A stretch of DNA of 35,892 nucleotides from positions 1 through 35,892 of the forward strand of contig JAAERL010000060.1 in the NCBI GenBank assembly GCA_024230435.1, given 5' to 3'. The DNA is from Desulfobacteraceae bacterium (GTDB taxonomy: Bacteria; Desulfobacterota; Desulfobacteria; Desulfobacterales; Desulfosarcinaceae). Shown one piece after another: positions 3,239-22,555 of this stretch. The notes beneath the pieces are model-generated. The model was not told the DNA's origin. It saw nothing but the letters and a program-made list of their open reading frames with translations, and did no database searches. The first letter of the stretch is position 1, and the number at the start of each line of letters is the position of its first letter. Made by a program: the position numbers and the translations under genes.

Positions 3239-3449
3239 GTCAACTACCCCGGCCTAAAGGGCGGGGCGAAGCTTGTAAGAGTAAGTTTTTTGCGTTAACC
3301 AAGGCACGGACAACCGTGACGTAGCTACGTTACAGCATAAACCAGGAACCTTGGGCCTGCTTTGTTGGCTCCAGGCCTGTGGCTGCTTGCGCTAAAGTCG
3401 CCAGGGTTGACTTGGACCCGTGAAACCGGAAAAATTGAAGGTAACTTCA
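3239..3449 (+). ncRNA. HEARO / omegaRNA-like RNA, copy 1
   Basis: The region matches the 5' part of the iscB element at 4632-4892: the left hairpin, an ACCGTGACG stem segment, a GGCTGCTTGCGCTAAAG segment, and the conserved GACTTG-ACCCG-GAAA-CGG block followed by a GAAAAATTGAAGG-ACTTC block just before the relic iscB start. This pattern is that of HEARO RNAs, shown to be the guide-carrying omegaRNAs of IscB nucleases. The ORF that would follow is deleted. Expression cannot be judged from sequence. Confidence 0.65.
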
Positions 3450-3562
3450 ATGCAGCAAGTATTGCCGATTGTTACATCACGCCGATGTCTGCAACTATCA
3501 ACAAAAAAAGGAGGCGGTGTTTGCTCTCCGGAATAAATGCCGGAGTCTGTTCACCAAATTTT
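3239..3562 (+). mobile_element. iscB-derived element 1 (omegaRNA-only, iscB deleted)
   Basis: It starts with GTCAAC and a left hairpin (CCCCGGCC-TAAA-GGGCGGGG) typical of IscB-type IS200/IS605-like elements, and continues through an omegaRNA-like region to the relic iscB start at 3450. After about 10 bases of iscB the sequence jumps at GTATT to the 3' end of iscB, then to the right-end hairpin (CTCCGG-AATAAATG-CCGGAG) and ends near 3562. The same layout and junction occur in element 3 (22221-22555). It lies 25 bases upstream of the next gene's ATG and probably provides that gene's 5' context. It carries no transposase, so movement would need one supplied in trans. Confidence 0.75.
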
Positions 3563-3586
3563 AGACTACGATACAGAGATTTTTAT

Positions 3587-4564
3587 ATGAATTCCTTATT
3601 AAAGGCAAACCGGAAAAAGCGGTATTATCTTTTCAAGTCAACAGCGGGCGGCGTTTTACCGGTAATTTTCATAACAGCGCTGACGGCATTACTGATCTTC
3701 TGGAGCCTTGTGAAAGTAAGTTCTTCGAAAACTATCGATATCCGGGTCAAACTTTATAACCTTTGCGAATCGCCCTACACGCAACTGTCAATGGATTTTG
3801 ATCTATATAAAAAATATGAAATCACCTTTACGACAAAAGACCCGAATTTTACAATGTTGAAAAATGCGCGTTACACAGGAATACCTTTGCCTAAATTGCT
3901 GTCCGGGTCCGCATGCATTACCCCGGATAATTTGAATTTCATTATACTGGCAAATGATCAATATGTTCTGTTTGACGCGTTGGACAAATCGGGCGGCATT
4001 TTTTCGTATGAACTCAATTCAAAACCCATTCCCTTAAAATATGGCGGTCCCCTGAAAGTCGTGTATCGGAACTTTCCGAGCCAGGAAGCCGCGATTTGGC
4101 ACGCTAGCAGCATTGTTCTGGGAACCCTTGAAAAACCAGCCCTGCGTCTTATAACAGAAAAAGGCAAAACAATCTTTTATGATATTGACCGCTTAAAAAC
4201 CATAAAAAACAAGCTGAGAAGAATCCCTTTCATATTACCGCGGGGCTACAGAATAAAAAAAAGCATGACGAAAAGCATTAATGTACGATATCTTCCTTTT
4301 TCACAGCTTCTTCAAGCGGACAACATAAACAATACATATTTCACCATGGATACGTATACAGGGCATTCATTTGAGATCAACAAGCAAACGCACTTGAAGC
4401 AACTGTATCTTGTTTTCCAGTTTAATGAAAAAAATATACCAATTCAACGGGGAGGCCCATTCATTCTGGCGTTTAAACATAAATTCAGCGATTTGTTTGC
4501 AGATATGCAACCATACTATTTCATCCACACCATTCGGATGCAAAAAGGGCCGAACCGGCCATAG
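3587..4564 (+). CDS. Membrane-anchored sulfite-oxidase-fold (molybdopterin-binding-like) protein
   Basis: 325 residues from the ATG at 3587; the frame is open further upstream, but that part is iscB-element sequence and is excluded. An N-terminal hydrophobic segment (about residues 20-40) should act as signal anchor. The body resembles the oxidoreductase molybdopterin-binding (SUOX) fold: YTGIPLPKLL at about 100, a FIILANDQYVLFDALDK-like segment, KPIPLKYGGPL, and SSIVLGTLEKPALRL. Weaker similar elements recur in the C-terminal half (YTGHSFEI, IPIQRGGPFIL), so a second degenerate domain is possible. The Cys ligand of true sulfite oxidases is not apparent, so it may be a sensory or binding domain rather than an enzyme. 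It lies between two iscB-derived elements, 1.06 kb upstream of a hybrid kinase on the same strand, which may be a partner. Confidence 0.6.
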   Translation: MNSLLKANRKKRYYLFKSTAGGVLPVIFITALTALLIFWSLVKVSSSKTIDIRVKLYNLCESPYTQLSMDFDLYKKYEITFTTKDPNFTMLKNARYTGIPLPKLLSGSACITPDNLNFIILANDQYVLFDALDKSGGIFSYELNSKPIPLKYGGPLKVVYRNFPSQEAAIWHASSIVLGTLEKPALRLITEKGKTIFYDIDRLKTIKNKLRRIPFILPRGYRIKKSMTKSINVRYLPFSQLLQADNINNTYFTMDTYTGHSFEINKQTHLKQLYLVFQFNEKNIPIQRGGPFILAFKHKFSDLFADMQPYYFIHTIRMQKGPNRP

Positions 4565-4631
4565 ATTTTTTTTGAGAATTACAGCATTGGCGTTAATCTT
4601 TTTGAAACTTAACATAGCTACAGCAAGTGCA

Positions 4632-4892
4632 GTCAACTGCCCCGCCCCTAAAGGGCGGAACTTGTATGAACACAGCTTTTTACGCTGGCTAAGGCACTGG
4701 CGCCACGGGCAACCGTGACGGTACAGCAAAAACGGGGGCTTTGAACTGCTTTATCAGCTCCAGGCTCTGAGACAAGCAGTCAAAAAGGGTAAAGTAAAGG
4801 GGTTAAGCCGCCGGCTGCTTGCGCTAAAGCAGCTAACATTGCCGGGGTGGACTTGAACCCGGGAAGCGGAAAAATTGAAGGTGACTTCATCA
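4632..4892 (+). ncRNA. HEARO / omegaRNA, copy 2 (with iscB remnant)
   Basis: The longest of the three omegaRNA-like regions, directly abutting the iscB start at 4893 as expected for HEARO RNAs. It shows the left hairpin, the GCAACCGTGACGG segment, a GGCTGCTTGCGCTAAAGCAGC stem segment and the conserved GGTGGACTTGAACCCGG block, then a TTGAAGGTGACTTCATC stretch that leads into iscB. In IscB systems the guide is encoded by genomic sequence just 5' of the element, here the bases ending at 4631. Whether it is still transcribed is unknown. Confidence 0.7.
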
Positions 4893-5411
4893 ATGCAACG
4901 AGTATTCGGTATAGGCAAAAACAAAAAAGCACTAATGCCATGTAATCGTGCAAGGGCAAAAAGACTGCTTGATAGCAACCATGCAGCAGTATTCAAAAAG
5001 TATCCGTTTTCACGTATTTTCAAAGACTGGGAGGCAAAACCGGCTCAATTAGCCGGACTGCGCATTGATCAGGATTCAAAGACAACAGCAATTTCACTTG
5101 CCGTTAGTGGAATAAAGACAAATCGAGACGTTTTTGCATTAAATCTGAATCATCGGGCAAACCTAATTCAAAAAGCTTTAACAGACAGACGAAGTATGCA
5201 CAAAGGATGGTGTAACCGCAAAACCCATTACCGCAAATCACGCTTTTTAAACCGGACGCGACCTGAAACCTGGCTACCTCCATCGCTTCGTATTACCAGT
5301 AAGTATTGTGGGTTATTGCGCCATGTGCCAGCGGGTACAACTATTTACAGGAAGCAGACGACGGGCAGGCTCCGGCATGCATGCCGGAGCCTGCCCGCTG
5401 AATATTTGATC
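4632..5411 (+). mobile_element. iscB element 2 (omegaRNA plus truncated iscB)
   Basis: It begins with the same GTCAAC plus C-rich/G-rich left hairpin (CCCCGCCCCTAAAGGGCGG) as elements 1 and 3, carries the full omegaRNA-like region, then an iscB reading frame with a large internal deletion. It ends in a right-end hairpin (CTCCGGCATGCATGCCGGAG, about 5371-5390) followed by GAATATTTGAT, identical to the end of element 3. No tnpA transposase gene is present. It is inserted 67 bases after the sulfite-oxidase-fold gene and 214 bases before the hybrid kinase gene. Confidence 0.8.
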
Positions 5412-5510
5412 AGGGCTCACAATATCCTTAGAAGCGGTTTCAAGGCGTACTTGAGAACCGGATCAATTTTACAACATCTTATCAACCAGTGCAAAACCTG
5501 GGATTTTTAA
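4893..5510 (+). pseudogene. iscB: Truncated IscB (RuvC-I and bridge helix only)
   Basis: Starting at the ATG at 4893 the frame shows IscB hallmarks: the PLMP domain (KNKKALMPCNRARAKRLL, then AVFKKYPF), RuvC-I with LRIDQDSKTT (family form IDPGSKTT, catalytic Asp retained), ALNLNHRANLIQ, and the Arg-rich bridge helix through RNRKTHYRKSRF-like and RPETWLPPSLR sequences (about residues 110-135). The frame then jumps to the C-terminal tail (SKYCGLL to LPAEYLI), so RuvC-II, HNH and RuvC-III are missing (intact IscB is about 400-450 residues). The homology ends near 5411; the rest to the stop is read-through into flanking DNA. Not expected to cleave; it could at most still bind RNA. Confidence 0.8.
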
Positions 5511-5625
5511 CTGCCTTGATGTCAAAGGTCCGTGGCTGACGGCCACAGCTTTACTGTTGGCTCCTTACCGCTGAACGCCTCAGGCTTTTACAACATTAAG
5601 GTATATTTTCGCAAATCCCAAAGAG

Positions 5626-7818
5626 ATGGATGAATTGTATTTTTCAAGCATAAAAGTCAAACTGACCCTAATCTTCTGTCTTATTTACACTATTTCCTTT
5701 TTCATTATTTTTCAATTCACCTCAAGCCGAATCAAAGAGACGCTTGAAAAAAACATCCTGGAAAAAAATTTACAAAAAACCATTGAGTTGAGCGGCAAAA
5801 TGGCCGACGCGCTCAAATGGGGTAATTGGGCTACTATCGAAGTAACCTTGAAAAGCCGTTTTAAACAGAATCCTGATTGGCTTTTTGTTCTGGTCAGAGA
5901 TAAGAATGGTGAACTTGCCGTATCCACAGACGATACCTTGATCGAGGACGCCGGCTCACATTATCTGCCAGAGTTCAACATGGCTTCTTCAAAGACCATG
6001 ACTCTGTCTTCTGATCCATGGAAAAGCATTCAACTGTCCATTCACTATCAGTTGACGACCATTGCCGGAGATATCATACACAACAATGATATTATCAGCT
6101 CGAAAGGTGAAACAATTTTCGATGCTTACATTCAGATTACCCGGAATAAGGAAATTCTGGGATCGGTCAGAGCCGGATTTTCCCGCCGTGCACTGACTAA
6201 AGACATCAGGCAATTGAAATTATTCCTGATTACAATAGAAATTGCTGCGCTTTTGCTTTCGTTTTTTTTAATGATTGCGGTCTTTAGCAACATGCTCAAG
6301 GACCTGACAGAGCTGGCCCGGGAACTTTCAAAAATCTCACATGCCGACAATCCCAATGAGTTGCTATCCCAATTACAGGCCATTAGCATTGATAAAATTA
6401 ATGTCAAAACACATGAATTAAAGGAATTAAAAAAGGCCTCGCTGCGATTCCAGCAACAGTTGGTGTTGAATATCGAGCAGGCTGAAAAATATTCACACAT
6501 GGAACGGCATGCCCGCACAATGGAGGACATTGCAAAGACAACCCAAATGCTTGCCCATGATATCCGAAAGCCGCTATCAATGATTTTAATGATTATGCAA
6601 ACACTTCAGGACTGCACCGAGCCGCGGGAGATACAAGCGATATCCAAAAAATTCCTTCCGGAAATGCAATCTGCGATTACCGCGGCCAACGACATGATTG
6701 ACGACATCATGGAAATCGATCGTGCACAGCGGCCAAAAATAAAACCTATAGATCCGTTGGTTGTCATAAAAAAGTCTCTCAGGGAAATCTCTCGAATCTA
6801 TCCCACGGCGCAAATTGATATTGAATATGCATTAAACCACCGGCATATGATCAATGCTGATGAATTAAAACTGCAAAGGGTGTTTTCCAATATTTTTTCC
6901 AACGCCGCCCAGGCCATGAACAAAACGGGCGCTTTGCGAATATCGGCTCATGAAGATACGCACAAGCAGATGACAACCTTTTGTATTGAAAATAACGGCG
7001 CCTACCTGCCAAAGGATGAACTGTCGAAAGTGTTTGATGCATTTTACACAAAACACAAAGAAAATGGCACCGGCCTTGGGCTGGCCATTTCAAAAAGAAT
7101 CATCATGGCTCATGGCGGCGAGATTTGGTGCGAATCATTCCGACCTGAAATGGTCGTAAAATTTTGCTTTACAATTCCCATTGCCGCGCAAAATCCAGCA
7201 AATGCTTACTCTGTTGGCTTGCCCTTGCACTTGAATGAATTGTCTGATGAATACGAACTCAAATCGAAAAGCCGCATTACAGCACAAGGCATAACAGTTT
7301 CCGATCCCAAGCAATTATCCTCGGAAAAAACGATTCATAAATACTATAAGCAAAACGGAAAAAAACTCAAACTTTGTATTCTCGACGATGAACTGATTTA
7401 CCAAATATACCTGGTGGAATTAATAAAAAAGTCACAGCTGCTCAATTGCTCTATAGATATCAGTTTAGCCAAAAACCATGAAGAAGTTTCAACGCTTTTT
7501 GCCCAAAACACACCTGATTTATTGATTTGTGATATCGATTTAGGCCCAGATTGCCTCGATGGTTTTCAAATTGTCAGCAAACTTCGAAAAAGCGGATACA
7601 AACAAGCCGTTTGCATGCATTCAAACCTCAGTCTCCTGCAAGACTGCGAAGCATCGATTAGGGCCGGCGCTCAGGCAATATTACCCAAGCCAATGCCCCT
7701 GGAACATCTCATCACGTTTATCTTTGACTCGTTACCGGCGATAACAAGTCAGCCGATAGCAGGCGCTAAACAACCACCATGCCCCTGGCCCGGACCTAAT
7801 CGGCTTCGCTCACAATAA
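5626..7818 (+). CDS. Hybrid sensor histidine kinase with C-terminal receiver
   Basis: 730 residues. A transmembrane helix at about 10-31 and another at about 197-220 enclose a periplasmic sensor of about 165 residues. A linker and coiled coil lead to HisKA with the phosphorylated His311 (MLAHDIRKPL), then HATPase_c with the N box at Asn426 (NIFSNAAQAM) and the G2 box GTGLGL at 481-486. The G1 box is degenerate (IENNGAYLP in place of DxGxG). The C-terminal receiver has Asp587-Asp588, acceptor Asp636 (LLICDID) and Lys688 (PKP). The start ATG overlaps AAGAG, a modest ribosome binding site. No output gene is adjacent; the receiver may pass phosphate to a distant phosphotransfer protein. The sulfite-oxidase-fold gene upstream may have been its neighbour before element 2 inserted. 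Confidence 0.9.
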   Translation: MDELYFSSIKVKLTLIFCLIYTISFFIIFQFTSSRIKETLEKNILEKNLQKTIELSGKMADALKWGNWATIEVTLKSRFKQNPDWLFVLVRDKNGELAVSTDDTLIEDAGSHYLPEFNMASSKTMTLSSDPWKSIQLSIHYQLTTIAGDIIHNNDIISSKGETIFDAYIQITRNKEILGSVRAGFSRRALTKDIRQLKLFLITIEIAALLLSFFLMIAVFSNMLKDLTELARELSKISHADNPNELLSQLQAISIDKINVKTHELKELKKASLRFQQQLVLNIEQAEKYSHMERHARTMEDIAKTTQMLAHDIRKPLSMILMIMQTLQDCTEPREIQAISKKFLPEMQSAITAANDMIDDIMEIDRAQRPKIKPIDPLVVIKKSLREISRIYPTAQIDIEYALNHRHMINADELKLQRVFSNIFSNAAQAMNKTGALRISAHEDTHKQMTTFCIENNGAYLPKDELSKVFDAFYTKHKENGTGLGLAISKRIIMAHGGEIWCESFRPEMVVKFCFTIPIAAQNPANAYSVGLPLHLNELSDEYELKSKSRITAQGITVSDPKQLSSEKTIHKYYKQNGKKLKLCILDDELIYQIYLVELIKKSQLLNCSIDISLAKNHEEVSTLFAQNTPDLLICDIDLGPDCLDGFQIVSKLRKSGYKQAVCMHSNLSLLQDCEASIRAGAQAILPKPMPLEHLITFIFDSLPAITSQPIAGAKQPPCPWPGPNRLRSQ

Positions 7819-8390
7819 ACGGATTGCCTTCGCGCGTTGCCCGGTCATTGAGAATTTTGCATATTCACATTAATATCAGCCGGTAAATACTATGAAGGAT
7901 CATTTGCACAAAAGCCGAGTCTCAAGCAATGCAGACTTCGAAAATAGGCTCATGTTGAATTCCAAATCACGAAGGGATCTATCCAAATGTACGAGGTGCA
8001 AAAAGAAGACAAGCCAAAAGGATAATTTTAAAAAAATAATAAACTATGAAAAATAAAGCTTGACTTTTAAATGCGCCTCCGAAAAAATTATTCATAATAC
8101 TCAATAATAAAAAATCCAATATAATATTCGAGAAGTTGATTCAACCAACAATTGGACTGATTCAACAATCCAGCCACTAACGAAAATGGAAACGATTATC
8201 GAACATCGTTGGACCGACAGGGATTGCACAAAGCTTTTTCCCAAGAACCAAGTTGAAGAGCTTTTCTTTAAGAACTTATCGACAAGGCGCGTTCGGTAGT
8301 TTTTTTAAGCCTGTTTTCGAAACGCTCAAAAGCAAGCGCAGATTGAAATTATGATAATAAGGGCGTGAAAAATGCGGATGCACCACTTAT

Positions 8391-8493
8391 GCTCGTCCTT
8401 AAATTCGTTTTCGTTATGTTGCGTCAATATGCACAGACAACGAGTATACACCCATTGACGCGCCTTGAAAACGAATCCAAATCCGGCGCAATA
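8391..8493. repeat. Palindromic repeat B, copy 1
   Basis: An imperfect palindrome with arms around TTCGTTTTCG-TTGCGTCAAT and its complement (ATTGACGCGCC-TTGAAAACGAA-TCCAAATCCGGCGCAATA). The same block, including ACAGACAA, GTAT and CACCCATTGACGCGCC, recurs at 28164-28277. It shares GCGCCTTGAA-ACGAA with repeat A, so the two families appear related. Confidence 0.7.
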
Positions 8494-8521
8494 ACGTCTA
8501 TATTGTCATCTTTCAGGACCC

Positions 8522-8605
8522 TTACGTATTCGCACCTTTAGCATAACACACAAGACGGGAAAAAAGGCATGCAAGATGGTATATTATTCAACACAAATCG
8601 TCTTA
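8522..8605. repeat. Half copy of palindromic repeat A fused behind repeat B
   Basis: Only the right half of repeat A is present: TTACGTATTCG, a CCTTTAGCATAACACACAAG segment, GGCATGCAAGATGGTATATT and the terminal AATCGTCTTA. The left half is absent and its place is taken by repeat B, 28 bases upstream. This looks like a recombinant between two members of the family. Confidence 0.65.
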
Positions 8606-8986
8606 TACTTCCGAGGGCGACGATAATCTGTTTCGCCATGTTTTCGCCCGGTTTAGAAGAAAAACTAAATGCCATAGTAAAAGCAAGGAGATGCTCCGAA
8701 ATCCACTTATTCTTCTAATTCTCAAATGAGACGATGGTTTTGAGGTTATACTAAATTAACAATGCCAGATCCAGAAACACAACATGAGCCTTCTTTTTAC
8801 AAGTCAATTTTCATGCACAAGTATATTTCACCATCTTATCTGCTGATAAATAGATAAAATATCAGACAGATATATTTGCGAATAGTCCTTATTTTCATGC
8901 GATAGACTCAGATCGCACCTTCTATCTAAATTGCCAACCGTGTCACGATCCTAATCGGATTACATTAAAACTAAAGGAGATTGATG

Positions 8987-10711
8987 ATGAAAAAAAACTC
9001 AAAAAAATTGTTTTTTTTTGTAATGCTCCTGATAATTACGCTTTTGAACACTTCACTTTATGCCTTTAATGACCCGGAACAAAACAAGGCGGATTATCGT
9101 AAAATGGCAATTGAGAATCCCTCCAGCTCTGCGGCTCCAATTCTGGCCTTTGAAGGTTTGGATATCAGTGATCACTATTTGGATTCATTATTGGCGTCGA
9201 TTGTGAATGATGAAACCGGAGATTTTAATTTAGCCCAGGTGATAAGGATATTATATTTCACGGATAAATACGATGAAAAGATACTGCCTGTTTTAAGCGA
9301 ACTGAATTACTGGCTGACCAAGGGCGAAGACTTATACTGTTATTGGTCTGAAAATCACATGATACTATGGATGTCCGCAGCCTATCTTATGAAACAGCGC
9401 GAAGGCTGGCAAATGGACACTGCCCTGGAACAAAGGCTTTCCCACTACCTGAAATTAAAAATCGAGTATGGATTCTATGAATTCTTTTCATCGGTCTACT
9501 TTACGTATTCACTTGCCGGGCTGCTCAATCTTGCCGATTTCGCCAAGGATGAACAGATCAGATATGAAGCTGAAAAGGCGGCAAAAATTCTGATGAAAAA
9601 CATATTGCTGCTGACTAACGATAAGGGAGCTTATTTTCCCTCTGCCGGCAGAAATTATGTCTCCAAATATACATCGGCATACAACCATAATCACACCACG
9701 ATCATTGAACTTGTCACAGGTTTGGCTGAACCGGATACAAGAGCCGGCTACATTGGCGGTTTTATTTCAACCTCTAGTATAGACCTGGCAGATGTTGCAA
9801 ATAGCTGGCGGAATACACTAAACACAACCTTGAATTTTGGGCACAGCCAGTCGGATAAATTAAAGGTTCACGCTGGATTTGACAGGCTTGACCGAACAAT
9901 CTTCCAGTGGAGTTCCGGTGGTTATTTCCACCCCGATACTGCAGCCGACACCAGTTACACCGTCAACTATTACGATTTGGGAAAAAACAAACATCTTGCG
10001 ATATTCGGCAGCGCTACCGGCTTTCCGGACAATTGGCTGGACAATTTGGCTAAAATAGGGGCAACCTTTGGCCGCAGTTCGGATATTTCCCACGCAACGA
10101 TTGATATTTTTAAAAACAAGGGCATTGTGTTGACCTCCCTGCACAATTATTACGGTGGATACTTTGGCTGGCAGCAATGGCCCTGGGCAGCCACAATCGA
10201 TGATATTGCCGTATGGACCCAATCCGGGCAAGTAAAAGAAAACTGGCGGGATCGCGGCGGGATCAACGCCAATTCACATCTGCCATACATCGATCAGGTA
10301 GACAATGTTGCTTTGATTTTGTACTGGCCCAATGCGGAAATACGCATTGCTGATACCTTTAATCAACTCGATACCAGTGTCGCCTTATATTGGCCCGCGG
10401 ATAGATTTGATGACTCCTTTGAATACGGTAAATGGATCATCGGGCGCAAAAACGATAGTTACGTGGCAGTTTACCGTGACGGAACCGGCGTCAAAAACGG
10501 TCATTACTATTCCGAAGCAAATCGTGGAAGGCAAGCCTGGGCCGTGGTCGTAGGAAATGTGGACATGCATCACAGTTTTGACAATTTTGTCAATGTTATC
10601 AAGACCTCTAATTATCGAATCAATTATTCATGGGATTGGTCAAAATGGACCATGGTATATGACGTAAAATTAACTGTCGATGGCATTAGCATAAGCAAAC
10701 GCTGGTGGTAA
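8987..10711 (+). CDS. Secreted protein, possible polysaccharide-lyase-like enzyme
   Basis: 574 residues from the ATG at 8987, chosen because AAAGGAGA (8973-8980) lies 6 bases upstream; the ATG at 8984 is possible. Residues 1-27 are a Sec signal peptide. The N-terminal half is predicted mostly helical, with a YCYWSENHMILW motif at about 120 and aromatic-rich helices, reminiscent of an alpha/alpha-toroid. The C-terminal half is rich in Tyr, Trp and Gly and beta-like (HNYYGGYFGWQQWPW, LPYIDQVDNVALILYWP), as in toroid plus beta-sandwich polysaccharide lyases and related enzymes. I cannot name the family or a substrate. It is monocistronic and convergent with aroH. Confidence 0.6.
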   Translation: MKKNSKKLFFFVMLLIITLLNTSLYAFNDPEQNKADYRKMAIENPSSSAAPILAFEGLDISDHYLDSLLASIVNDETGDFNLAQVIRILYFTDKYDEKILPVLSELNYWLTKGEDLYCYWSENHMILWMSAAYLMKQREGWQMDTALEQRLSHYLKLKIEYGFYEFFSSVYFTYSLAGLLNLADFAKDEQIRYEAEKAAKILMKNILLLTNDKGAYFPSAGRNYVSKYTSAYNHNHTTIIELVTGLAEPDTRAGYIGGFISTSSIDLADVANSWRNTLNTTLNFGHSQSDKLKVHAGFDRLDRTIFQWSSGGYFHPDTAADTSYTVNYYDLGKNKHLAIFGSATGFPDNWLDNLAKIGATFGRSSDISHATIDIFKNKGIVLTSLHNYYGGYFGWQQWPWAATIDDIAVWTQSGQVKENWRDRGGINANSHLPYIDQVDNVALILYWPNAEIRIADTFNQLDTSVALYWPADRFDDSFEYGKWIIGRKNDSYVAVYRDGTGVKNGHYYSEANRGRQAWAVVVGNVDMHHSFDNFVNVIKTSNYRINYSWDWSKWTMVYDVKLTVDGISISKRWW

Positions 10712-10914
10712 CGCCAGGTGCTTGCATTGTGTTATGACCAAGTTACACCTGAGATTGTGTTAATTTGGAATAATTGTTCAATCGGCTACTTTTTGCATAC
10801 GCAAAAAAACAATCGCTGACTAGCAAAATACGGCTTATACGAAGCACTGATTTACCCGTATATCCCGCAACAACTTCCCATTATCGGCCAGTCCTCTTTT
10901 ACGGTAAAAGCGGG

Positions 10915-14765: not shown

Positions 14766-15281
14766 TTACGGCCACCTGTAAGGGCGGTCATTATCGCCCC
14801 GGTTTCGGTTTGAGTGGGGAAATACCGTCATCGGCTGAGAAATCGCCAGCACCTTATCCGACTTGAACGTCACGATGGGAAGCGCCCACACAGAGTACCA
14901 TAAGCCAATCCGGTTCTTTTGATTGTCCAAAATATAAGCGCCGTTAGGTTCGATATTATATTCCGCTCCCGGTTGGTCTTTCATACGATCTACCCATGTT
15001 CTGAGCTGTTTTTCCGTCATAATAACCGGGCGCCAGGAAGGCGCTTCCAATGTGTATTTTTTGCGCAGCCCCACGATTGCCACGGGCTTGGCATCATGAC
15101 CGCTGATATAGTACGAATAGTTATTATCAACTTGATATTGCTCAAAAATACGTTGAGCACTGACTTTACGGTCAAAGTGTTTGCCACTGGTGACACATCC
15201 GGTCGCAGCTCCAAAAAAAACCGGGATAATTATCCAATATATAACGCATATACCGCGCATCATTGCTGATTTTCCAGACAT
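14766..15281 (-). CDS. Predicted lipoprotein, unknown function
   Basis: 171 residues. The hydrophobic N-terminus ends in a lipobox-like AATGC with the candidate lipidated Cys29, so the mature protein should be attached to the inner or outer membrane. The mature part carries FEQYQVDNNYSYYISG, a GLRKKYTLEAPSWRPV segment and EKQLRTWVDRM, followed by a beta-like GLWYSVWALPIVTF end. I believe this pattern occurs in other sulfate-reducer lipoproteins, but no function is known to me. A GAGG sequence upstream of the ATG is a moderate ribosome binding site. It is divergent from the TraB-like gene. Confidence 0.65.
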   Translation of the reverse strand: MSGKSAMMRGICVIYWIIIPVFFGAATGCVTSGKHFDRKVSAQRIFEQYQVDNNYSYYISGHDAKPVAIVGLRKKYTLEAPSWRPVIMTEKQLRTWVDRMKDQPGAEYNIEPNGAYILDNQKNRIGLWYSVWALPIVTFKSDKVLAISQPMTVFPHSNRNRGDNDRPYRWP

Positions 15282-15544
15282 AAGTCACACCTCACATATT
15301 TGGGGGTATTGAAACTTCAAATCGCCCCATTTTTCAATAACGGGTGATTACCTCTTTTCAGGCCGTTATTGAATGCACGTTAACCGTATATTCTTACATA
15401 CTGTCGGTATCGTTGTTGATTCCTGACAATTTTAAAGCTAAGGTAATTACAATACCTTAAAAAATTAAAAAAAAGAATCTTGCTGACAATATAATAATAC
15501 CAGAGTGAAAAACAGGATTTTTAAAAGGATTACAGGAAAACAGC

Positions 15545-16642
15545 ATGGCCCTCATGAATAGAAAAAATGCCTTCATATTCGGCCAAATCATATTGTTCGC
15601 AATTGTGTTGGGCCTGTTGGGAAATCCGAATGCATCGGCTGATATTTACCGGTGGAAAGATGCCGATGGAAAATGGCATTTTACTGACAGCCCTCCTTCC
15701 GAAGAGCAAGTGGAACGTCTGGGTTCGGAAATCATTCAGGAAACATCACCGCCGCCCCAATCAAATGATAAACCGTTGGTGCAAGATCAAAAGCTGCCGG
15801 ACAAAAACCCTTTGCCTTCAAACTCGGCATTTTCCTCCGCCTCTGGAAAAAACGGCCTGTTCTGGAAAATAAGCAAAAACGGTCTACGTCCGAGCTATTT
15901 ATTGGGAACCATCCATTCCTCGGACCCTAGAGTGACTCAATTGCGCTCTGAAGTTCAACAGGCCCTGGACACTTCGGATGCGTTTGTTATGGAAATGCTT
16001 TTGGATACGAGCGTTTTTATGCAACTGGGAAACAATATCATGCTCAACGGCGGCAAAAGCCTGGATCAACTATTGGGCCAACCACTTTTTCAGCGCGTAG
16101 TAAATGCTGTGGCCGGTTACGGGTTGCCGGAAATGGTCACCATGCAACTGAAACCATGGTTTATTATGGCCTTATTGAGCATGCCCAAACCAACCGGCGG
16201 TCAGGTGCTGGACATGGTTCTTTTCCAACGCGCCAAAAGCCGGGGCAAACCCGCAACCGGCCTGGAAACCGCCCAGGAACAAATGGCGGTATTCGAGTCA
16301 ATTCCCCTTGACGATCAAATCTCATTGCTTAAAATGACTTTGGACCAGTTGCCTCAACTTCCGGGGATGTTTGAAGCCTTGATACAGGCGTATGTAGCCG
16401 ATGATCTGGAAAAAATAGAAAAATTGGCCGATCAATACAAAAACCAAAGCGATATAAGCGCCCTGAAGCGCTTCATGTTCAAATTAAACGATGAACGTAA
16501 CACACGCATGGCGGTACGCATGACTTCCTACCTTCAGCAAGGAAATACCTTTATTGCCGTAGGCGCTTTACATCTGGCCGGCAATTCCGGTTTGCTCCAA
16601 AGCCTTCGGCAAAATGGGTACGTTCTTACACCTGTGCGGTAA
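15545..16642 (+). CDS. DUF4124 domain fused to TraB/GumN family protein
   Basis: 365 residues with an N-terminal signal peptide or anchor (about 10-32). A DUF4124 segment follows (ADIYRWKDADGKWHFTDSPP, residues 32-51), then a Pro-rich linker and the TraB/GumN domain from about residue 104. Family landmarks: LLGTIHSSDPR with GTIH at 121-124, GLETAQEQ with Glu241, LNDERNTRMA at about 314, and AVGALHLAGNSGL with GALH at 340-343. The two Gx(x)H motifs and the Glu are the proposed metal-binding residues shared with the Tiki/EreA-like superfamily, so a periplasmic metal-dependent hydrolase is plausible. The physiological substrate is unknown. Confidence 0.88.
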   Translation: MALMNRKNAFIFGQIILFAIVLGLLGNPNASADIYRWKDADGKWHFTDSPPSEEQVERLGSEIIQETSPPPQSNDKPLVQDQKLPDKNPLPSNSAFSSASGKNGLFWKISKNGLRPSYLLGTIHSSDPRVTQLRSEVQQALDTSDAFVMEMLLDTSVFMQLGNNIMLNGGKSLDQLLGQPLFQRVVNAVAGYGLPEMVTMQLKPWFIMALLSMPKPTGGQVLDMVLFQRAKSRGKPATGLETAQEQMAVFESIPLDDQISLLKMTLDQLPQLPGMFEALIQAYVADDLEKIEKLADQYKNQSDISALKRFMFKLNDERNTRMAVRMTSYLQQGNTFIAVGALHLAGNSGLLQSLRQNGYVLTPVR

Positions 16643-16882
16643 ATCAAATGCAAAACACTGTTTCCCGTTGAAAACACCACCTGCTGGTCCACTACGGGCA
16701 ATGACACCAGACCGGACTCCATCTCAAGCTAAAAGTCTATTGTTGGAATGACAAATCCCCAAGTCGTCAAGCGTTAACAAAGACATAGATTCAATATAAA
16801 AGAGCCATCTAATAATTGCCTTAATTCGCGGTTATTAAGGGGCTTGGAAGCTATTAACCTTCTTTAGCAAAAAAAAGTTATA

Positions 16883-18859
16883 ATGCGTCACTTCAAAACG
16901 TTATTTTCCTTGCCAAAATCATTCGGCAATGACTGTAAAATGGAGATCAATCCAATTACGCTAGCCTTTAGAGGTCAACAGGCCAAACTGGAAAAAACCT
17001 TTTTACAACAATATATTGTCAAATCATTACCTCAAATACGCGTGGCAATGGTGCTCGGATTGCTGTTAATTATTTTATTCGGTATCCTGGATATCGTTGT
17101 GGCTCCCGAGCTAAAAGAGCCTTATTGGCTGATTCGCTTTGCCATTATCAGCCCTGCAATTGTGCTGGGTTTTGTGTTCACGTTTTCACATCGTTTTTTA
17201 AAATACATGCAAATCACAACCATTGCGCTGATGCTCATTACCGGATTAGCCATTGTCTATATGACCATGATCGGCAACGGCATAACAGCCCGGACATACT
17301 ACGCCGGCCTGATTTTGGTTATTATGGTCGCGCATATATTTTGCCGTATGCGTTTTATCCTGGCTTCTCCGGCCAGTATCTTTTTAATTATTTGTTATTA
17401 CCTGGCGGCTTATTACAATAGCGCGGTGCCGTTGACAGCTTTAATCAATAATATGTTTTTTTCCGGAGCGGCCAGCATCACCGGTATGCTGATCTGTTAC
17501 ATGATCGAATATTACGCGCGCAGGGATTTTTTTATGGAAAAACTGCTTGATGAGAAACATCAACGCGTTGAGACTAACAATTGCTTGTTGGAAGAAAAGG
17601 TTGAAAAACGTACGGCCATGCTGGGCAAGGCCAACGATGAATTGCGAAAGGAAATTCAGGCCCACCAGAAGCTTGACTGGGAAAAAAAATCATTGGAAGG
17701 CCAGCTGCGTCAAGCTCAAAAAATGGAGGCTGTGGGTACTTTGGCCGGGGGGATTGCACATGATTTCAATAACATTCTGGCAGCCATCATGGGGCATACG
17801 GAACTTGCATTGTTGAAAAAGGGTGTTTCCGAAGAAATGCAAAATTGCCTGAATGAAGTGCTCAGCGCAAGTGAACGCGCCAGAGATCTTGTAAGACAGA
17901 TATTGTCCTTTAGCCGAAACAGTGAAAGTGAACTTAATCCTATTCAGATCAATTTGATTGTTCAAGAAGCCTTACGATTGCTCAGAGCATCTTTGCCCGC
18001 AAATATCAGCATCGATAAGGATATCCAGGCCAAGAACAGCATCGTTGTTGCCGACGCAACCCAAATTCACCAGATATTGATGAACTTATGCACAAACGCT
18101 GCTCATGCTATAGGCGATAAAAACGGCTCACTGAAAGTTTGCCTTAAGAGTGTGGATATTTCGCTCAATGAGCTCAATGATCAATTCCTGTTTCCCAGTC
18201 AGCTCAGACCCGGCGAGTATGTGTGCCTGTCTGTTTCCGATACCGGCCATGGCATACCGTTGCATTTGCATGAACGAATATTCGACCCCTATTTTACGAC
18301 AAAAGATAAGGAGGTGGGAACCGGTCTGGGTTTGGCTGTCGTATGCGGCATAGTCCAAAATCACGGCGGAATCATTGATATGCGAAGCCTGCCGGGCAAG
18401 GGAACTACGTTTGAAGTCTATCTGCCCAGAGCACATGAATTGACAAGGGAACAATTTTCTCCTCCGGCCATTATCAGTACCGGCAAAGAGCACATTTTAT
18501 TGGTCGATGATGACAAAGGATTATCCGAGCTGGGGGCAAAACTGCTGGCAACCCTTGGATACCGGGTAAAGTTCCACACTGAACCGGTGCAGGCCCTGTC
18601 GGAATTTCGAAAGTTCAAAACCCGGTTTGACCTGGTTATTACGGATATGATCATGCCCGAAATCAACGGGGAATCCTTATCCCGGGAAATTTTGAAAATC
18701 CGCCCTGATATCCCGGTGATCATCTACACAGGCTTCAGCGACTCGATTAACCAGGAAAGGCTTGATGAAATCGGTGTAAAAAAAATCCTACGAAAGCCCA
18801 TCACTATCAACAGGCTGTCAAAAGCGATACGCCAAGTTTTGGGAAGCCAGGCAAGCTAA
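16883..18859 (+). CDS. Hybrid histidine kinase with multi-span N-terminus and receiver
   Basis: 658 residues from 16883; a second ATG at 16940 (MEINPITLAF) is an equally possible start, and neither has a strong ribosome binding site. Residues about 50-215 contain roughly six hydrophobic helices, a membrane sensor with little periplasmic domain. A coiled coil (about 225-280) leads to HisKA with His293 (AGGIAHDFNNILAA, the PAS/hybrid kinase type), then HATPase_c with the NLCTNAAHA N box, DTGHGIP G1 and GTGLGLAVV G2 boxes. The C-terminal receiver has Asp588 (VITDMIMPE) and Lys638 (RKPI). All catalytic motifs are intact, unlike the kinase at 5626. It is monocistronic. Confidence 0.93.
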   Translation: MRHFKTLFSLPKSFGNDCKMEINPITLAFRGQQAKLEKTFLQQYIVKSLPQIRVAMVLGLLLIILFGILDIVVAPELKEPYWLIRFAIISPAIVLGFVFTFSHRFLKYMQITTIALMLITGLAIVYMTMIGNGITARTYYAGLILVIMVAHIFCRMRFILASPASIFLIICYYLAAYYNSAVPLTALINNMFFSGAASITGMLICYMIEYYARRDFFMEKLLDEKHQRVETNNCLLEEKVEKRTAMLGKANDELRKEIQAHQKLDWEKKSLEGQLRQAQKMEAVGTLAGGIAHDFNNILAAIMGHTELALLKKGVSEEMQNCLNEVLSASERARDLVRQILSFSRNSESELNPIQINLIVQEALRLLRASLPANISIDKDIQAKNSIVVADATQIHQILMNLCTNAAHAIGDKNGSLKVCLKSVDISLNELNDQFLFPSQLRPGEYVCLSVSDTGHGIPLHLHERIFDPYFTTKDKEVGTGLGLAVVCGIVQNHGGIIDMRSLPGKGTTFEVYLPRAHELTREQFSPPAIISTGKEHILLVDDDKGLSELGAKLLATLGYRVKFHTEPVQALSEFRKFKTRFDLVITDMIMPEINGESLSREILKIRPDIPVIIYTGFSDSINQERLDEIGVKKILRKPITINRLSKAIRQVLGSQAS

Positions 18860-18902
18860 TACAGGAACTGACTCGCGCCACCGGATCCATATATTCTGAT
18901 AA

Positions 18903-19560
18903 TCAAACGGGACGGCGTGCGATGGCAAACAGGTTTCCTAAATCTTTAGCAATAACTTCGATATTCGCCCCAAAAGACGTCTGACTGAAAATTAGGGTCA
19001 GGTCCCGGTCGTCACTGTGAATCCGGCAATCGCCTAAGAGCTTTTTCGCTAAATTTTCTATTTCCCAGACAGGCTCTAAGATATGATCCATAAAATAACG
19101 ATCGGGATTTAACGGCGAAAAATTACCAATAATTAACATGCCGCCGGGCCGTAATTGGCGATAGCATCGATTGATCAAACCCGGCATCTTCCAAGACCCT
19201 CAGATAATCGCAAAACCCGGAAAAATAGATAATATCTTGTGATTGGAAATCATGGACAATACGTCCCAATGACTATTTGATTACATTCTCGCACATAAAC
19301 CTCAACCGGGTCTTATATGAGTACGAGGACCAACCTTTTAACATGTATATTCAAGTGCTTGTGTATCACACATTAATGCAAACGGCGTCAATCTTGCCAT
19401 CGTAATCCACCTCAAGCAATGTAATAAATCGATTAATTCCCGGACGGGCCCGCAGACCAAATTCATAATGCGGATATTTTGTCTGGATTTCAGGACTTGC
19501 GGACTATATTTTTTTAAAAATATTGTAAACAAATTTTCAGGCAATACGTCTAAGTAGTGT
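18903..19560 (-). pseudogene. Frameshifted SAM-dependent methyltransferase remnant
   Basis: Minus-strand fragments of a class I methyltransferase in several frames. From about 19560 a frame reads YLDVLPENLFTIFL and NIRIMNLVCGPVREL, the SAM-binding motif I region. Sequence resembling IDAVCIN and MCENVI appears in another frame with stops. From 19187 a frame reads LINRCYRQLRPGGMLIIGNFSP, the motif post-III region, and runs to 18903. Several stops and frameshifts separate the parts. The 5' end abuts the promoter of the plus-strand gene at 19585, so the original N-terminus may be lost. Some relatives carry an extra N-terminal regulatory domain, which cannot be checked here. Confidence 0.7.
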
Positions 19561-19584
19561 AAAATAGTGAAAAGGAGGTTCCTC

Positions 19585-20007
19585 ATGACAATAAAAAACC
19601 TTGTATCGATTTTCATAGTGAGCGCTTTGGCCGTTTTTTGCGTGATACCTTCATCCTGGGCAGGTTCACCCCAAAGCCACCGCTGGGAAGGTGTTGCCAT
19701 AGGCGTTGGGGCAGCAATTTTAGGCAAAGCCTTCATTGATAGCCATCACAGCAGCTATCGGCCTGACCCGCGCCCTGCACCTGTATACGGCCATAAGCCG
19801 CCAAGGGTCGAACATTATTATTATGAAAAACCGGAGCCTGCCGGGCATTGGGAAACACGTAAGTACTGGGTCGAGCCGGCCTACAAAAAAACCTGGAATC
19901 CGGGTCACTACAACAGGCGCGGGCATTGGGTAGAAGGCGGCTGGGTGCAATTAGAGGTTGAGCCGGGCTATTGGGTCAAAAAAAAGGTTTGGGTTCCGCA
20001 CTACTAA
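19585..20007 (+). CDS. Secreted Gly-zipper / Trp-rich small protein
   Basis: 140 residues from the ATG at 19585, preceded by AAAAGGAGG at ideal spacing; the upstream in-frame codons are excluded. Residues 1-26 are a signal peptide (cleavage near SSWAGS). A short Gly/Ala-rich helix (VAIGVGAAILGKAFI) follows, then a His-, Pro- and Tyr-rich segment. The C-terminal half repeats aromatic modules with GHW or PGH/GYW spacing (PAGHWETRKYWVEP, NPGHYNRRGHWVEGGW, EPGYWVKKKVWVP). Such proteins are common in Proteobacteria and are thought to associate with the envelope; the function is unknown to me. Confidence 0.75.
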   Translation: MTIKNLVSIFIVSALAVFCVIPSSWAGSPQSHRWEGVAIGVGAAILGKAFIDSHHSSYRPDPRPAPVYGHKPPRVEHYYYEKPEPAGHWETRKYWVEPAYKKTWNPGHYNRRGHWVEGGWVQLEVEPGYWVKKKVWVPHY

Positions 20008-20049
20008 TTGTTAAGAAAAGATCCGAAAAAAAAGATCCGGGTGGTAAAC

Positions 20050-20213
20050 TTAGGCGATTGGGCAAAAGAATATACCATATTGGGCTTAGATTTTTTTCGT
20101 CTTCAAAGCGCACCAAAGTTTGCATACTTAACGTATTCGAACCTTTGGCATAACGCACAAGACGCCAAAAAAAGACATGCAAGATGGCATATTATTTAAC
20201 ACAAATCGCCTTA
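20050..20213. repeat. Palindromic repeat A, complete short copy
   Basis: 164 bp bounded by TTAGGCGATT and AATCGCCTTA. The outer arms (AAAGAATATACCA and TGGCATATTATTTAA) and inner arms (TTTTTTTCGTCTTCAAAGCG-CACCAAAG and CCTTTGGCATAACGCACAAG) pair imperfectly around a GTTTGCATACTTAACG centre, so the whole unit can fold into one long hairpin. Flanking TA dinucleotides would fit an IS630/Tc1-like target duplication, but this is uncertain. It lies between the secreted Trp-rich protein and pheA. Confidence 0.85.
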
Positions 20214-20301
20214 TATTAGCGCCCATTCATAAATGGCTAATTTGCCTGCTTCACCGATAGACACCATGCTAACAAAGTTTGCAATTTTCACGGTCCTTAT
20301 T

Positions 20302-21360
20302 TTACCCAAGATCAGGGGGATAGCTGCCCAGAAACTTGACTGCAATGGTCATCTTTTTTAATTCCGCCATTACGGCGGACACGTTAGGATCTTGTTCAGA
20401 GCCCTCAAAATCAAGAAAAAAGCTGTAATTGCCCGGATCAGTTCTAATCGGCATGGAGGCAATGCGTGTGAGGTTGATGTCGGATTCTGCAAAAAGCCTT
20501 AGCACCTTATGAAGCTGTCCGGCTTCATGGGCGGTGGAAAAGATAATTGAGGTTTTGGCGACATCGGGAGTCATTCCATCACGAGATAAAAGCACAAAGC
20601 GGGTTTGGTTGGCATCGCCGTCCTCAATCCCCTGATCGAGAACTTTCAAATCGTAAAGCTCCGCGCTCAAAGCGCTGGCAATAGCTCCAGCGGCACGCGG
20701 AGATTCACGGGCGATCATTTTTGCTGCGCCTGCAGTATCGTAATAGGGTCTGGGTTCAATTTTCCGGGCCGATAAAAATTGCTGGCATTGGGCCAGGGCC
20801 TGGGGGTGTGAATAGGCAACCCGGATTTCATCCAGTTCAAACTCGTGGGGGGCTAAAAGGCAATGCCGGATGGGCACTTTGGCTTCACCGATCACCTTTA
20901 AGCCGGTTCGGGTAAGCAAATCATTTACTTGTGTGACCGCACCTTCTAATGAATTTTCAACAGGCACAACGCCCAGATCCAAAGCCCCTTGCTCAACCCC
21001 TTCAAAAACGTCAGCAAATTCAAGACAAGGAATATAAACCCCCTGGGGGCAAAGACGCCGGGAGGCCACTTCCCCATAAGCGCCATGCTCTCCCTGAAAG
21101 GCGACCAGTTTCCGGTCCTGCTGCTGTAAGCGTTTGCTTTCCCGGATGATATTTTCCAGCAATTGGCGGGAAAAAGAACGCTCAACCAAATCAAGGTTCA
21201 TCCGCTCGGCCCGTTGCAAGACGTCCTGCTCCCGCTTGGGGTCAGCCACCGATGATTTGAATTTTTTTGACCGCATGGCCAATCCCATGCGCTCTTGCAG
21301 CAAGACCAGTAATTCACGATCTATTTTATCGATTTTACGCCTTATTTCATCCAGTTTCAT
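20302..21360 (-). CDS. pheA: Bifunctional chorismate mutase / prephenate dehydratase
   Basis: 352 residues from the ATG at 21360, preceded by AAGGGAAAG; the longer upstream frame is not needed. An AroQ chorismate mutase domain (1-80, KLDEIRRKIDKIDRELL, with Arg and Lys of the AroQ site) is followed by prephenate dehydratase (about 84-262: VAFQGEHGAYGE, VVPVENSLEG, and the catalytic TRF at 253-255 in NQTRFVLL) and a C-terminal ACT domain (about 270-345, SIIFSTAHEAGQLHKVL). It converts chorismate to phenylpyruvate for Phe synthesis. The ACT motif that binds Phe in relatives (ESRP) reads ASMP here (residues 301-304), which may change feedback inhibition. It is a monocistronic unit divergent from the metallopeptidase gene. 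Confidence 0.95.
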   Translation of the reverse strand: MKLDEIRRKIDKIDRELLVLLQERMGLAMRSKKFKSSVADPKREQDVLQRAERMNLDLVERSFSRQLLENIIRESKRLQQQDRKLVAFQGEHGAYGEVASRRLCPQGVYIPCLEFADVFEGVEQGALDLGVVPVENSLEGAVTQVNDLLTRTGLKVIGEAKVPIRHCLLAPHEFELDEIRVAYSHPQALAQCQQFLSARKIEPRPYYDTAGAAKMIARESPRAAGAIASALSAELYDLKVLDQGIEDGDANQTRFVLLSRDGMTPDVAKTSIIFSTAHEAGQLHKVLRLFAESDINLTRIASMPIRTDPGNYSFFLDFEGSEQDPNVSAVMAELKKMTIAVKFLGSYPPDLG

Positions 21361-21648
21361 ATTATACTTTCCCTTCTGGCAATTCACAAAAATATAAAAA
21401 GAACGAACATACAACCAAGTCAATTCTCAGTGCAAGCCAACGGCTGAAAAATTTAGCGCGAATTTACACATTAGGGATTTACTTTATAAGTGTAATACTT
21501 TAATTGGTAAACACGCAAGCTTTGGTGCTGGAAAAATCAAATATAGAAATGTAACTTTTGAGCAATCCGCGGTTCGTTAATTTTTTGAAATAAAAAGCGC
21601 CCGTCAGTGATTTGGCTATTTCGCCGATGGGTGCTGGAAGACTCTGAT

Positions 21649-22239
21649 ATGGCATATAAAAAAATAATCATCCCCGAGGTTGGCGAAGTATTGTTGGAAC
21701 GAAGTCATAGGGCAAAACATTTAAATCTTTCCATGCGTCCGTTCAAGGGCGCCCGGGTAGCTGTGCCGCGAGGTGTCCCGTTCAGCAGCGCTGAGCAGTT
21801 TGCCCGTTCCAAAGCCGAATGGATTCGAACACGAGCCAAGTCCATGGAGCAGATTGAACTGCGGGCCAAGGTTTTGCGAAATGTGCTGCCGTTTGAAAAA
21901 GAAAAGGCCCGGCGGCACATCATTCACCGGTTGAAAACCCTGTCGCGTGAACATGGTTTTTCATATAACCGAGTCTTTATCCGCAATCAAAAAACCCGGT
22001 GGGGAAGCTGCTCGGCGGCCAATAATATCAATCTGAACATCAACCTGGTATTGTTGCCTGCCGAACTTATGGATTATATCATCCTTCATGAGTTGGCTCA
22101 CACCCGTGTCAAAAACCACGGTCCCGAGTTTTGGCGTATGCTGGAAAAAATAATCGACAATCCCAGACAATTGGACTGTAAGCTTGATCGCTACAGAGCA
22201 TTGCCCGCTGTTGATGCTCAGTCAACTACCCCGGCCTAA
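21649..22239 (+). CDS. YgjP/DUF45-type zinc metallopeptidase-like protein
   Basis: 196 residues from the ATG at 21649 (GGAAG 8 bases upstream). The N-terminal half has the family's beta-rich Arg/Lys segment (RAKHLNLSMRPFKGARVAVP); the C-terminal half has KTRWGSCSAANNINLN and the zinc motif HELAH at 147-151 with His157 in NHGPEFW, as in YgjP-like (DUF45, M48-related) proteins. Intact catalytic residues suggest an active gluzincin, role unknown. The last five residues (STTPA) and the TAA stop come from the left end of iscB-derived element 3, so the native C-terminus has been replaced. Confidence 0.88.
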   Translation: MAYKKIIIPEVGEVLLERSHRAKHLNLSMRPFKGARVAVPRGVPFSSAEQFARSKAEWIRTRAKSMEQIELRAKVLRNVLPFEKEKARRHIIHRLKTLSREHGFSYNRVFIRNQKTRWGSCSAANNINLNINLVLLPAELMDYIILHELAHTRVKNHGPEFWRMLEKIIDNPRQLDCKLDRYRALPAVDAQSTTPA

Positions 22240-22438
22240 AAGGCTACGCTTGCAAGAGCAAGCTTCTTTACGTTGACTAAAACAGGTACCACGAGCAATT
22301 GTAGCCGGGCTGCTTTGCCAGGTCTGGGCTCTGAGGCAGGCAGCTAAACTGATTTAAACCGGCGGGCTGCTTGCGCTAAAGCCGCCGCTAACTTTGCCGG
22401 GTGGACTTGAACCCGCGAAAGCGGAGAAATTTAAAGGC
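22221..22438 (+). ncRNA. HEARO / omegaRNA-like RNA, copy 3
   Basis: Shares with copies 1 and 2 the left GTCAAC end, the GGCTGCTTGCGCTAAAGCCG segment and the conserved GGTGGACTTGAACCCGC-GAAA-GCGG block. The left hairpin is weaker (GCCT-AAA-AGGC) and the ACCGTGACGG segment is degraded, so folding may be impaired relative to copy 2. If transcribed as an omegaRNA its guide would be the last codons of the metallopeptidase gene. Confidence 0.55.
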
Positions 22439-22555
22439 AAACGAGTATTGCCGATTATTACATCACGCCAATGGCTGCAACTATCAATTAGAAAAAAAGG
22501 AGGCGGTGTTTGCTCTTCGGCATAAATGCCGGTGTCTGCCCACCGAATATTTGAT
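22221..22555 (+). mobile_element. iscB-derived element 3 (omegaRNA-only, iscB deleted)
   Basis: It begins GTCAACTACCCCGGCC like element 1 and ends with the right-end hairpin region (CGGCATAAATGCCGG) and GAATATTTGAT exactly as in element 2. Between them lie an omegaRNA-like region and only the 3' tail of iscB (reading KYCRLLHHANGCNYQL in one frame). The junction ACGAGTATTGCCGATT is equivalent to CAAGTATTGCCGATT of element 1, so both share one deletion. About 11 bases around the relic iscB start are also missing. It is inserted between the metallopeptidase gene and the MATE gene and overlaps the former's 3' end. Confidence 0.75.

Follow-up and report, generated by a model that had tools for sequence, protein, structure and literature searches.

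The 35,892-nucleotide contig JAAERL010000060.1 of a Desulfobacteraceae bacterium (assembly GCA_024230435.1), the whole of which is referred to here as the window, carries three members of a repeat family (elements 1, 2, and 3) that is best explained as a set of degenerate, non-autonomous derivatives of an IscB (HEARO/ISC) element. Across the genome of this bacterium, the right ends of the family are docked at gene starts above chance, with 25 out of 35 right ends directly preceding an ATG that opens a gene. Taken as a whole, the family is probably best explained by the combination of docking at start codons, a right end that acts as a probable substitute ribosome-binding site, and an iscB-deletion junction that arises by recurrent slippage.

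Docking of Right Ends at Start Codons

The draft assembly searched comprises 1238 contigs with a total of 6.13 Mb. Elements 1 and 3, used as DNA queries, returned 48 and 42 matches, respectively (the elements themselves counted), and the matches to element 1 show 66–91% identity. Twenty-five copies were used to build a covariance model of the right end. It gave 36 matches, of which one is a palindromic end read in reverse, leaving 35 places. Chance similarity of the right ends is ruled out by the 35 places and their E values (from 3e-21 to 3e-4).

The right end is followed by ATG plus A, G, or C in 30 of the 35 places (the window copies have ACTA, ATCA, and ATAA), and in 25 places this ATG opens a gene and lies at most 3 nt from the consensus boundary. 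The docked genes consist of 23 open reading frames (ORFs) of at least 100 amino acids, a Pmp3 gene of 55 amino acids, and a gpW gene of 73 amino acids. All products except those at L033 and L045 (23 out of 25) have Pfam families, among them YgbB (IspF), AICARFT/IMPCHase (PurH-like, 225 amino acids), PPDK, class III aminotransferase, OsmC, GHMP kinase, epimerase, PSP1, a RecD2-type helicase, AsnC, two outer-membrane efflux proteins, and MauE. The conserved 5′ leader of a single gene family was rejected as an explanation because the docked genes are mostly unrelated (the 25 include two outer-membrane efflux proteins). The ten undocked places are elements 1, 2, and 3 and the loci L026, L030, L032, L042, L043, L044, and L085. 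Start-codon docking was not mentioned in the initial annotation of the window.

Docking was compared with a null sample of 3406 ATGA sites from 17 segments of 20 kb each (340 kb) of the same genome, with genes taken as ORFs of at least 80 amino acids. A total of 79 sites (2.3%) are predicted starts, 2798 lie within predicted genes, and 463 lie between genes; a generous count that accepts any ATGA in frame within the first 25 codons gives 145 starts. If every in-gene insertion were lost, the expected share at starts (starts relative to starts plus intergenic sites) would be 14.6%, or 23.8% by the generous count, compared with 25 out of 35 observed (binomial p = 5e-14 and 4e-9, respectively). 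In a null based on ORFs only, an ORF of at least 100 amino acids begins at 15.8% of sites (525/3324) compared with 23 out of 35 right ends (p = 4e-11). Docking by chance internal in-frame ATGs is ruled out with the ORF-only and site-class nulls.

The Right End as a Probable Substitute Ribosome-Binding Site

The consensus right end consists of AAGGAGG, a hairpin with the lower stem CGGTG/CACCG, and AATTTTAG or AATATTTG, followed by ATGA. AAGGAG is conserved, and the AAGGAGG stretch shares bases with the KGG codons at the C-terminal end of iscB. This Shine-Dalgarno-like stretch is located 48–56 nt before the ATG, which is too far for ordinary initiation, but closure of the consensus hairpin would bring the distance to ~8 nt. 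In an alignment of 31 rows (30 sequences from this genome and L116, with element 2 (E2), L032, L038a, L042, and L043 left out) the covariation score of the hairpin is 0.271 compared with 0.171 in shuffled alignments (0 out of 500 as high), and the lower stem is 94.8% paired with three of its five pairs changed on both sides. Divergent copies replace CGGTG/CACCG with CACCG/CGGTG or CGCCG/CGGTG.

A parent IscB element would have inserted next to ATGA, the motif at its right end. Most of the right ends that are still recognizable are located directly before the start codon of a gene, where the insertion would have displaced the ribosome-binding site of that gene. The right end would probably substitute for the lost site, with the hairpin bringing the AAGGAGG Shine-Dalgarno to ~8 nt from the new ATG, and the insertion would thereby be nearly harmless to the docked gene. 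Based on layout, covariation, and folding, we infer that the right end may initiate translation.

Empty sites were reconstructed by joining the flanks of 29 copies with both ends (17 docked and 12 undocked; L110 was dropped, its left end not being found). A strong native Shine-Dalgarno, defined as an anti-Shine-Dalgarno energy ≤ −5 at 3–12 nt from the junction, is present at the left junction in 7 out of 17 docked copies, in 1 out of 12 undocked copies, and in 9.8% of 1020 random 22-mers. Examples are AAGGAGCCAACCCG (L142), GGGAGCGAAA (L163), and GCAAGGAGAAAGAAT (L037), each joined to ATGA. At 11 of the 17 docked sites, no other in-frame start lies between the preceding stop and the joined ATG.

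Docking of Intact IscB Elements in Other Genomes

Intact IscB elements dock in several phyla, including in Desulfobacter, Ktedonobacter, and Moorena. Boundaries were defined by copy comparison together with joined flanks. Four out of 10 examined copies dock in Desulfobacter latus (L138, L142, L205, and L209, the last before asd), and L163, L145, L146, L147 (TrpB-like gene), L150, and L151 are docked as well. Two Ktedonobacter genomes were sampled with 30 out of the 74 matches listed, of which 27 reach the right end; 13 of these 27 copies begin an ORF of at least 100 amino acids within 3 nt of the right end, compared with such an ORF at 141 out of 816 background ATGG sites (25 out of 816 by a strict start criterion).

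The K. racemifer copy L219 is docked at a HIT gene and has the same layout as the window family (AAAGGAG, hairpin, AATTTTTAG, and ATGG). It belongs to a set of 80 named IscB loci, in which elements are also docked at genes with fitting Pfam families for a KatG-like peroxidase (L223, Moorena), a MutS2-like protein with MutS V and Smr domains (L181), a glycosyltransferase (L193), a semialdehyde dehydrogenase (L209, the asd copy above), an AdhE-like protein (L232), and an ABC protein (L239); L110, from another search, is docked at a gene for TsaD. Two layouts can be distinguished: the Shine-Dalgarno precedes the hairpin in the window family, D. latus, and Ktedonobacter and follows the hairpin in L147, L223, L239, and L110. 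Of the 80 loci, 18 lack an ORF of at least 90 amino acids in the 300 nt that follow the iscB stop, and many others have their first ORF of this size starting away from the right end. Single copies have no gene-independent right boundary, and the docked cases named here are thus examples and not a rate.

Alternative Explanations of Docking

Several observations weigh against start-codon docking with a substitute ribosome-binding site. None of the three window copies is docked exactly: element 1 has ACTA, which is no start codon, after its right end (the next long ORF starts at the ATG at 3587), element 2 has ATCA in this position, and element 3 stops 6 nt short of an ATG. The census is keyed on the right end and is blind to copies without it. 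The docking frequency is lower in young copies (4 out of 10 in D. latus and 13 out of 27 in Ktedonobacter), and docking is seen neither in the group of L149 (L149, L154, L164–L166, L168, and L169) nor in L148 and L152. An upstream in-frame start occurs before a stop in 6 of the 17 docked empty sites (L035, L037, L038c, L147, L205, and L209), so that the native start could lie further up in these cases.

The same holds for parts of the hairpin analysis. The 31-row set adds divergent copies and omits five of the 35 places, and a first alignment of 25 rows displayed weaker covariation (0.157 compared with 0.134 in shuffled alignments, 6 out of 500 as high) with both-side changes in four pairs, a number reached by 104 out of 500 shuffles. 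Folds of single sequences leave the outer stem unclosed in some copies (e.g., L032, L033, L034, L038b, and L038c), and the predicted accessibility of the Shine-Dalgarno is middling (mean unpaired 0.51). An intact AAGGAG or AGGAGG is present in 18 out of 23 docked copies compared with 6 out of 12 others, a weak difference (p = 0.094) in which the docked L028 and L089 were counted among the others, and anti-Shine-Dalgarno duplex energies of docked and undocked copies differ with p = 0.10; the comparison of docked and undocked copies is thus only suggestive of selection on the Shine-Dalgarno. Finally, the conservation of the hairpin may be explained equally well by a role in transposition.

A serious, if tentative, possibility is exaptation of the right ends, which selection would have retained as 5′ leaders for the docked genes once the remainder of the element had decayed. 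Consistent with this exaptation, L045, L046, L049, L051, and L086–L090 are docked with little recognizable beyond the right end and the stem changes in divergent copies are compensated, but a search that itself uses the right end would miss copies without it, and the Shine-Dalgarno contrast between docked and undocked copies is not significant. It is rather unlikely that docking has no translational meaning and reflects only a target preference combined with purging, that is, insertion at any ATGA followed by the loss of in-gene copies, with the hairpin and AAGGAGG serving the transposase and the C-terminal codons of iscB. Subterminal palindromes are used by IS200/IS605-type transposases and the hairpin is a palindrome of this kind, AAGGAGG overlaps the iscB frame, and a lower docking frequency in young copies than in the old copies studied here is what survival alone would give. 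However, full purging predicts 15–24% of the right ends at starts where 25 out of 35 are seen, and different groups of IscB have right ends that resemble ribosome-binding sites, in two layouts.

Probable Recurrent Origin of the Deletion Junction

A further component of the proposed explanation is a recurrent deletion within iscB. According to the initial annotation, the junction common to elements 1 and 3 most simply goes back to one microhomology deletion that was followed by spread. Both elements carry GTATTGCCGATT, element 2 has GTATT at both parental sites, and the same junction type recurs in the genome in a total of nine copies. The microhomology is thus borne out, whereas a single founder is neither needed nor supported. 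Because longer copies carry GTATTGCCGATT as well, as their 3′ parental site, this sequence alone is not diagnostic; what defines the junction is its fusion to the iscB start.

The junctions were aligned in 23 rows. Form A, the reported junction (in some copies with point changes), is present in nine copies (elements 1 and 3, L026–L031, and L040), and form B, which contains ~95 bp more of iscB, is present in seven (L032, L033, L035–L037, L038c, and L047). Five copies (L039 and L041–L044) keep part of the form B segment, and L034 and L038b carry other deletions near the same place. A tree was calculated from 14 of the 23 copies (seven of each form, all with part of the omegaRNA region and part of the iscB 3′ end, with partial copies and other junctions excluded) after removal of the junction and form B columns. 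On this tree, which is nearly a star, the form A label requires five changes compared with a mean of 5.0 for shuffled labels (349 out of 500 as low), and a single clade of form A is not formally rejected by the approximately unbiased (AU) test (p = 0.129). The repeat at the junction of form A reads CAAGTA in element 1, L026, L028, and L031, CGAGTA in element 3, L027, and L029, and CAGGTA in L030 and L040. The presence of at least two repeat types suggests different crossover points or later point mutation.

The form B segment is flanked by GCAGCRRGTATT-like direct repeats and folds as one long hairpin in L033, L037, L047, and L038c and less clearly in L032, L035, and L036. Replication slippage across a hairpin between short repeats yields the same junction repeatedly, and repeated slippage is thus predicted for a segment that often forms a long hairpin between direct repeats. 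The iscB-deletion junction of the window is therefore most likely a recurrent slippage product and not the mark of a single founder. That a guide-RNA-only element with a fixed junction arose by one deletion and spread in trans is improbable: the same junction type at different sites in nine copies, the AU test, and a few substitutions that elements 1 and 3 have in common right of the junction speak for this history, and the unclustered form A label, the two or more sequence types at the repeat, the other deletions close by, and the hairpin between direct repeats in the longer form speak against it.

Elements and Genes in the Window

Elements 1 and 3 are short, iscB-deleted HEARO/IscB copies with a left end, an omegaRNA-like region, and a right-end hairpin, as had been annotated initially. 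Element 1 (3239..3564, plus strand, form A) contains the junction at 3459..3470, as aligned with 22 other copies, and the right end (AAGGAGG, hairpin, and AAATTTTAG) at 3508..3564, where the right-end model matches 3508-3568. Element 3 (22221..22553, plus strand, form A) contains the junction at 22445..22456 and the right end (AAGGAGG, hairpin, and AATATTTG) at 22497..22553, with a match of the right-end model at 22497-22557. Both have the left end GTCAACTACCCCGGCCTAAA in common. The sequence right of the junction corresponds to the iscB C-terminus (TGTVQDISSKYCRLLHHANGYNYQ..KGGG), read from better copies and compared with the C-termini of intact IscB proteins. Element 2 (4632..5408, plus strand) is a longer IscB remnant with a strong right-end hairpin. 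Its N-terminal iscB remnant (4902..5294, plus strand; RRXRR domain) matches PF14239 over the cut-off (E values from 1.4e-30 to 3.9e-30) and positions 1-129 of NF040563 with 110 bits, under the cut-off of 175. Unusually perfect right-end hairpins occur in two undocked copies, L042 (C86:3820-3880) and element 2 (window 5362-5397), with 20 and 16 pairs and −43 and −41 kcal/mol, respectively.

Element 3 is located between two genes. Its right end is followed by ATAAAA and the ATG of a MATE-family gene at 22560 (MatE, E = 3.3e-50). On the left side, the frame of a YgjP-like gene (21607..22239, plus strand; PF01863, E = 2.1e-40) now ends inside the element. When element 3 is excised in silico the joined flanks read GATGCTCA followed by ATAA, and the YgjP-like frame, read by eye, would end in CAA TAA, a restored stop that is located 6 nt upstream of the start codon of the MATE-family gene.

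A search with RF02033 (HEARO) on short stretches matched all three elements over the whole model, with 29.7, 28.3, and 28.2 bits for elements 1, 2, and 3 (E = 0.0012, 0.0024, and 0.00063, respectively), and none of them reaches the gathering score of 83 bits. We take these weak matches as decayed homology rather than chance because the element is repeated ~35 times in the genome. A conserved omegaRNA fold among the copies was rejected: RNAalifold on 14 rows returned eight pairs with almost no covariation, which does not support functional guide RNAs today. The description of the copies as guide-RNA-only applies to their structure alone, since the omegaRNA part displays little covariation.

Age and Mobility of the Family

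This draft genome yielded no IscB match above the family cut-off (such a match is present in 21 out of 335 genomes searched), which makes movement in trans, as proposed in the initial annotation, plausible, but no mobilizer was identified. The genome contains 34 matches to Y1_Tnp, most of them partial and one of them full-profile and free of stops (C350:17986-18348), and none of the 34 could be tied to the ends of these elements. The right-end model has no matches in 59 related genomes (29 of the same family and 30 of the same order), and spread to relatives was thus not seen. The end branches on the 14-copy tree are 0.07–0.23 changes per column long, which is why the family looks old, and it is probably dead.

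Several groups of copies stand apart from the main family. L085 and L089 (C242:772 and C524:755) have a different upper stem and alike upstream contexts, and one of the two directly precedes the phage gpW gene, placing the family also in an apparent prophage. L049, L051, L086–L088, and L090 are divergent right ends before genes, with flipped lower stems (CACCG/CGGTG and CGCCG/CGGTG), and look like one or two older IscB groups of which little remains beyond the right end; some short IscB remnants are detectable only through the right end. Another dispersed repeat (GCGCGCCAAAGTTTGCATACTTAA... and similar sequences) is found beside or inside L029, L031, L055, L057, and L083 and could represent an additional miniature element.

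A second short IscB family in the same genome consists of six copies, L052–L057 (C136:17998, C144:61598, C750:6395, C1057:27914, C1044:34944, and C644:27644, respectively). Most have an omegaRNA-like left end, followed by ~71 iscB codons and a further remnant; in 5 out of 6 copies this remnant aligns with the end of the Y1 transposase profile. They apparently have one junction and a TTTTATA-type right flank, and a fixed deletion that spread fits these copies better than it fits the window family. Five copies retain this flank, and none of them is located exactly at a start codon, which provides a small internal control for docking.

Relation to Known Systems

The window family resembles the HEARO/ISC (IscB) elements of the OMEGA (obligate mobile element-guided activity) group in its left end with a weak match to the HEARO RNA, the iscB remnants that flank the junction, the right-end hairpin, and the ATGA-type flank. 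A right-end hairpin is followed by an ATGA/GTGA-type motif at 30 of the 35 right ends, and a recognizable iscB remnant is present in element 2 (by PF14239) and in the short copies (the C-terminal remnant, by reading frame). Weinberg is said to have described in 2009 HEARO RNAs that lack an ORF, as well as insertion in front of ATGA or GTGA, and Altae-Tran reportedly described in 2021 omegaRNA loci without iscB in Ktedonobacter racemifer.

Miniature inverted-repeat transposable elements (MITEs) and palindrome-associated transposable elements (PATEs) of the IS200/IS605 group are short and multi-copy, have kept their ends, lost their coding part, and are presumably mobilized in trans. The window family shares these traits, with many copies, common ends, and no full coding sequence (35 right ends and 14 aligned copies), but differs in that it keeps the guide-RNA region and has a junction that looks recurrent and not founder-derived. 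In phage T4 gene 38, a distant Shine-Dalgarno is brought closer to the AUG by a hairpin, similar to the hairpin-bridged Shine-Dalgarno proposed for the right end of the window family. In gene 38 this arrangement is fixed in one mRNA, whereas the predicted layout of the window family would be carried to many genes by a mobile element.

The target-adjacent motifs of IsrB given in the parts of PMC9581776 that were consulted are NTGA, NTG, or NTGG and are located 3′ of the target, corresponding to the right flank, and targets that bear ATGA are cleaved by IsrB in vitro according to the same parts of that paper. This motif equals a start codon plus one base, with NTG being a start codon for N = A, G, or T. 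The term start codon is absent from the main texts of PMC9581776, PMC9755519, and PMC12558985, and the link drawn here is genomic. In the passages of PMC13180657 consulted the term occurs once and concerns the choice of iscB starts, and the passages of PMC8987985 on IscB concern the origins of Cas9. No report of start-codon docking or of a right end resembling a ribosome-binding site was found in the titles, abstracts, and passages of the literature searched, with the founding HEARO and OMEGA papers (Weinberg 2009; Kapitonov 2016; Altae-Tran 2021) outside this set. As far as seen within these bounds, the motif is known, and its meaning as a start codon and the replacement of the ribosome-binding site are apparently unpublished.

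Implications for IscB Elements

Beyond the window family, we lean slightly towards the view that IscB-type OMEGA elements with an NTG(A) motif are parasites of start codons. The motif would be the start codon itself, insertion would occur between the Shine-Dalgarno and the ATG, the guide would record the displaced ribosome-binding site, and the right end, bridged by a hairpin in some lineages, would replace it and thereby maintain translation of the gene. Such start-codon parasitism would account for the NTG/NTGA motif of IsrB, for the presence of KGG codons at the C-terminal end of some IscB proteins, and for the location of elements before genes such as ispF, asd, and tsaD.

IscB is the likely ancestor of Cas9. 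If docking with the supply of a new ribosome-binding site holds true, the choice of target, the content of the guide (the old ribosome-binding site), and the harmlessness of the insertion would be one mechanism, which bears on the use of NTG-type motifs and on the persistence of IscB elements in compact genomes. Genes downstream of IscB elements could then have leaders of mobile origin.

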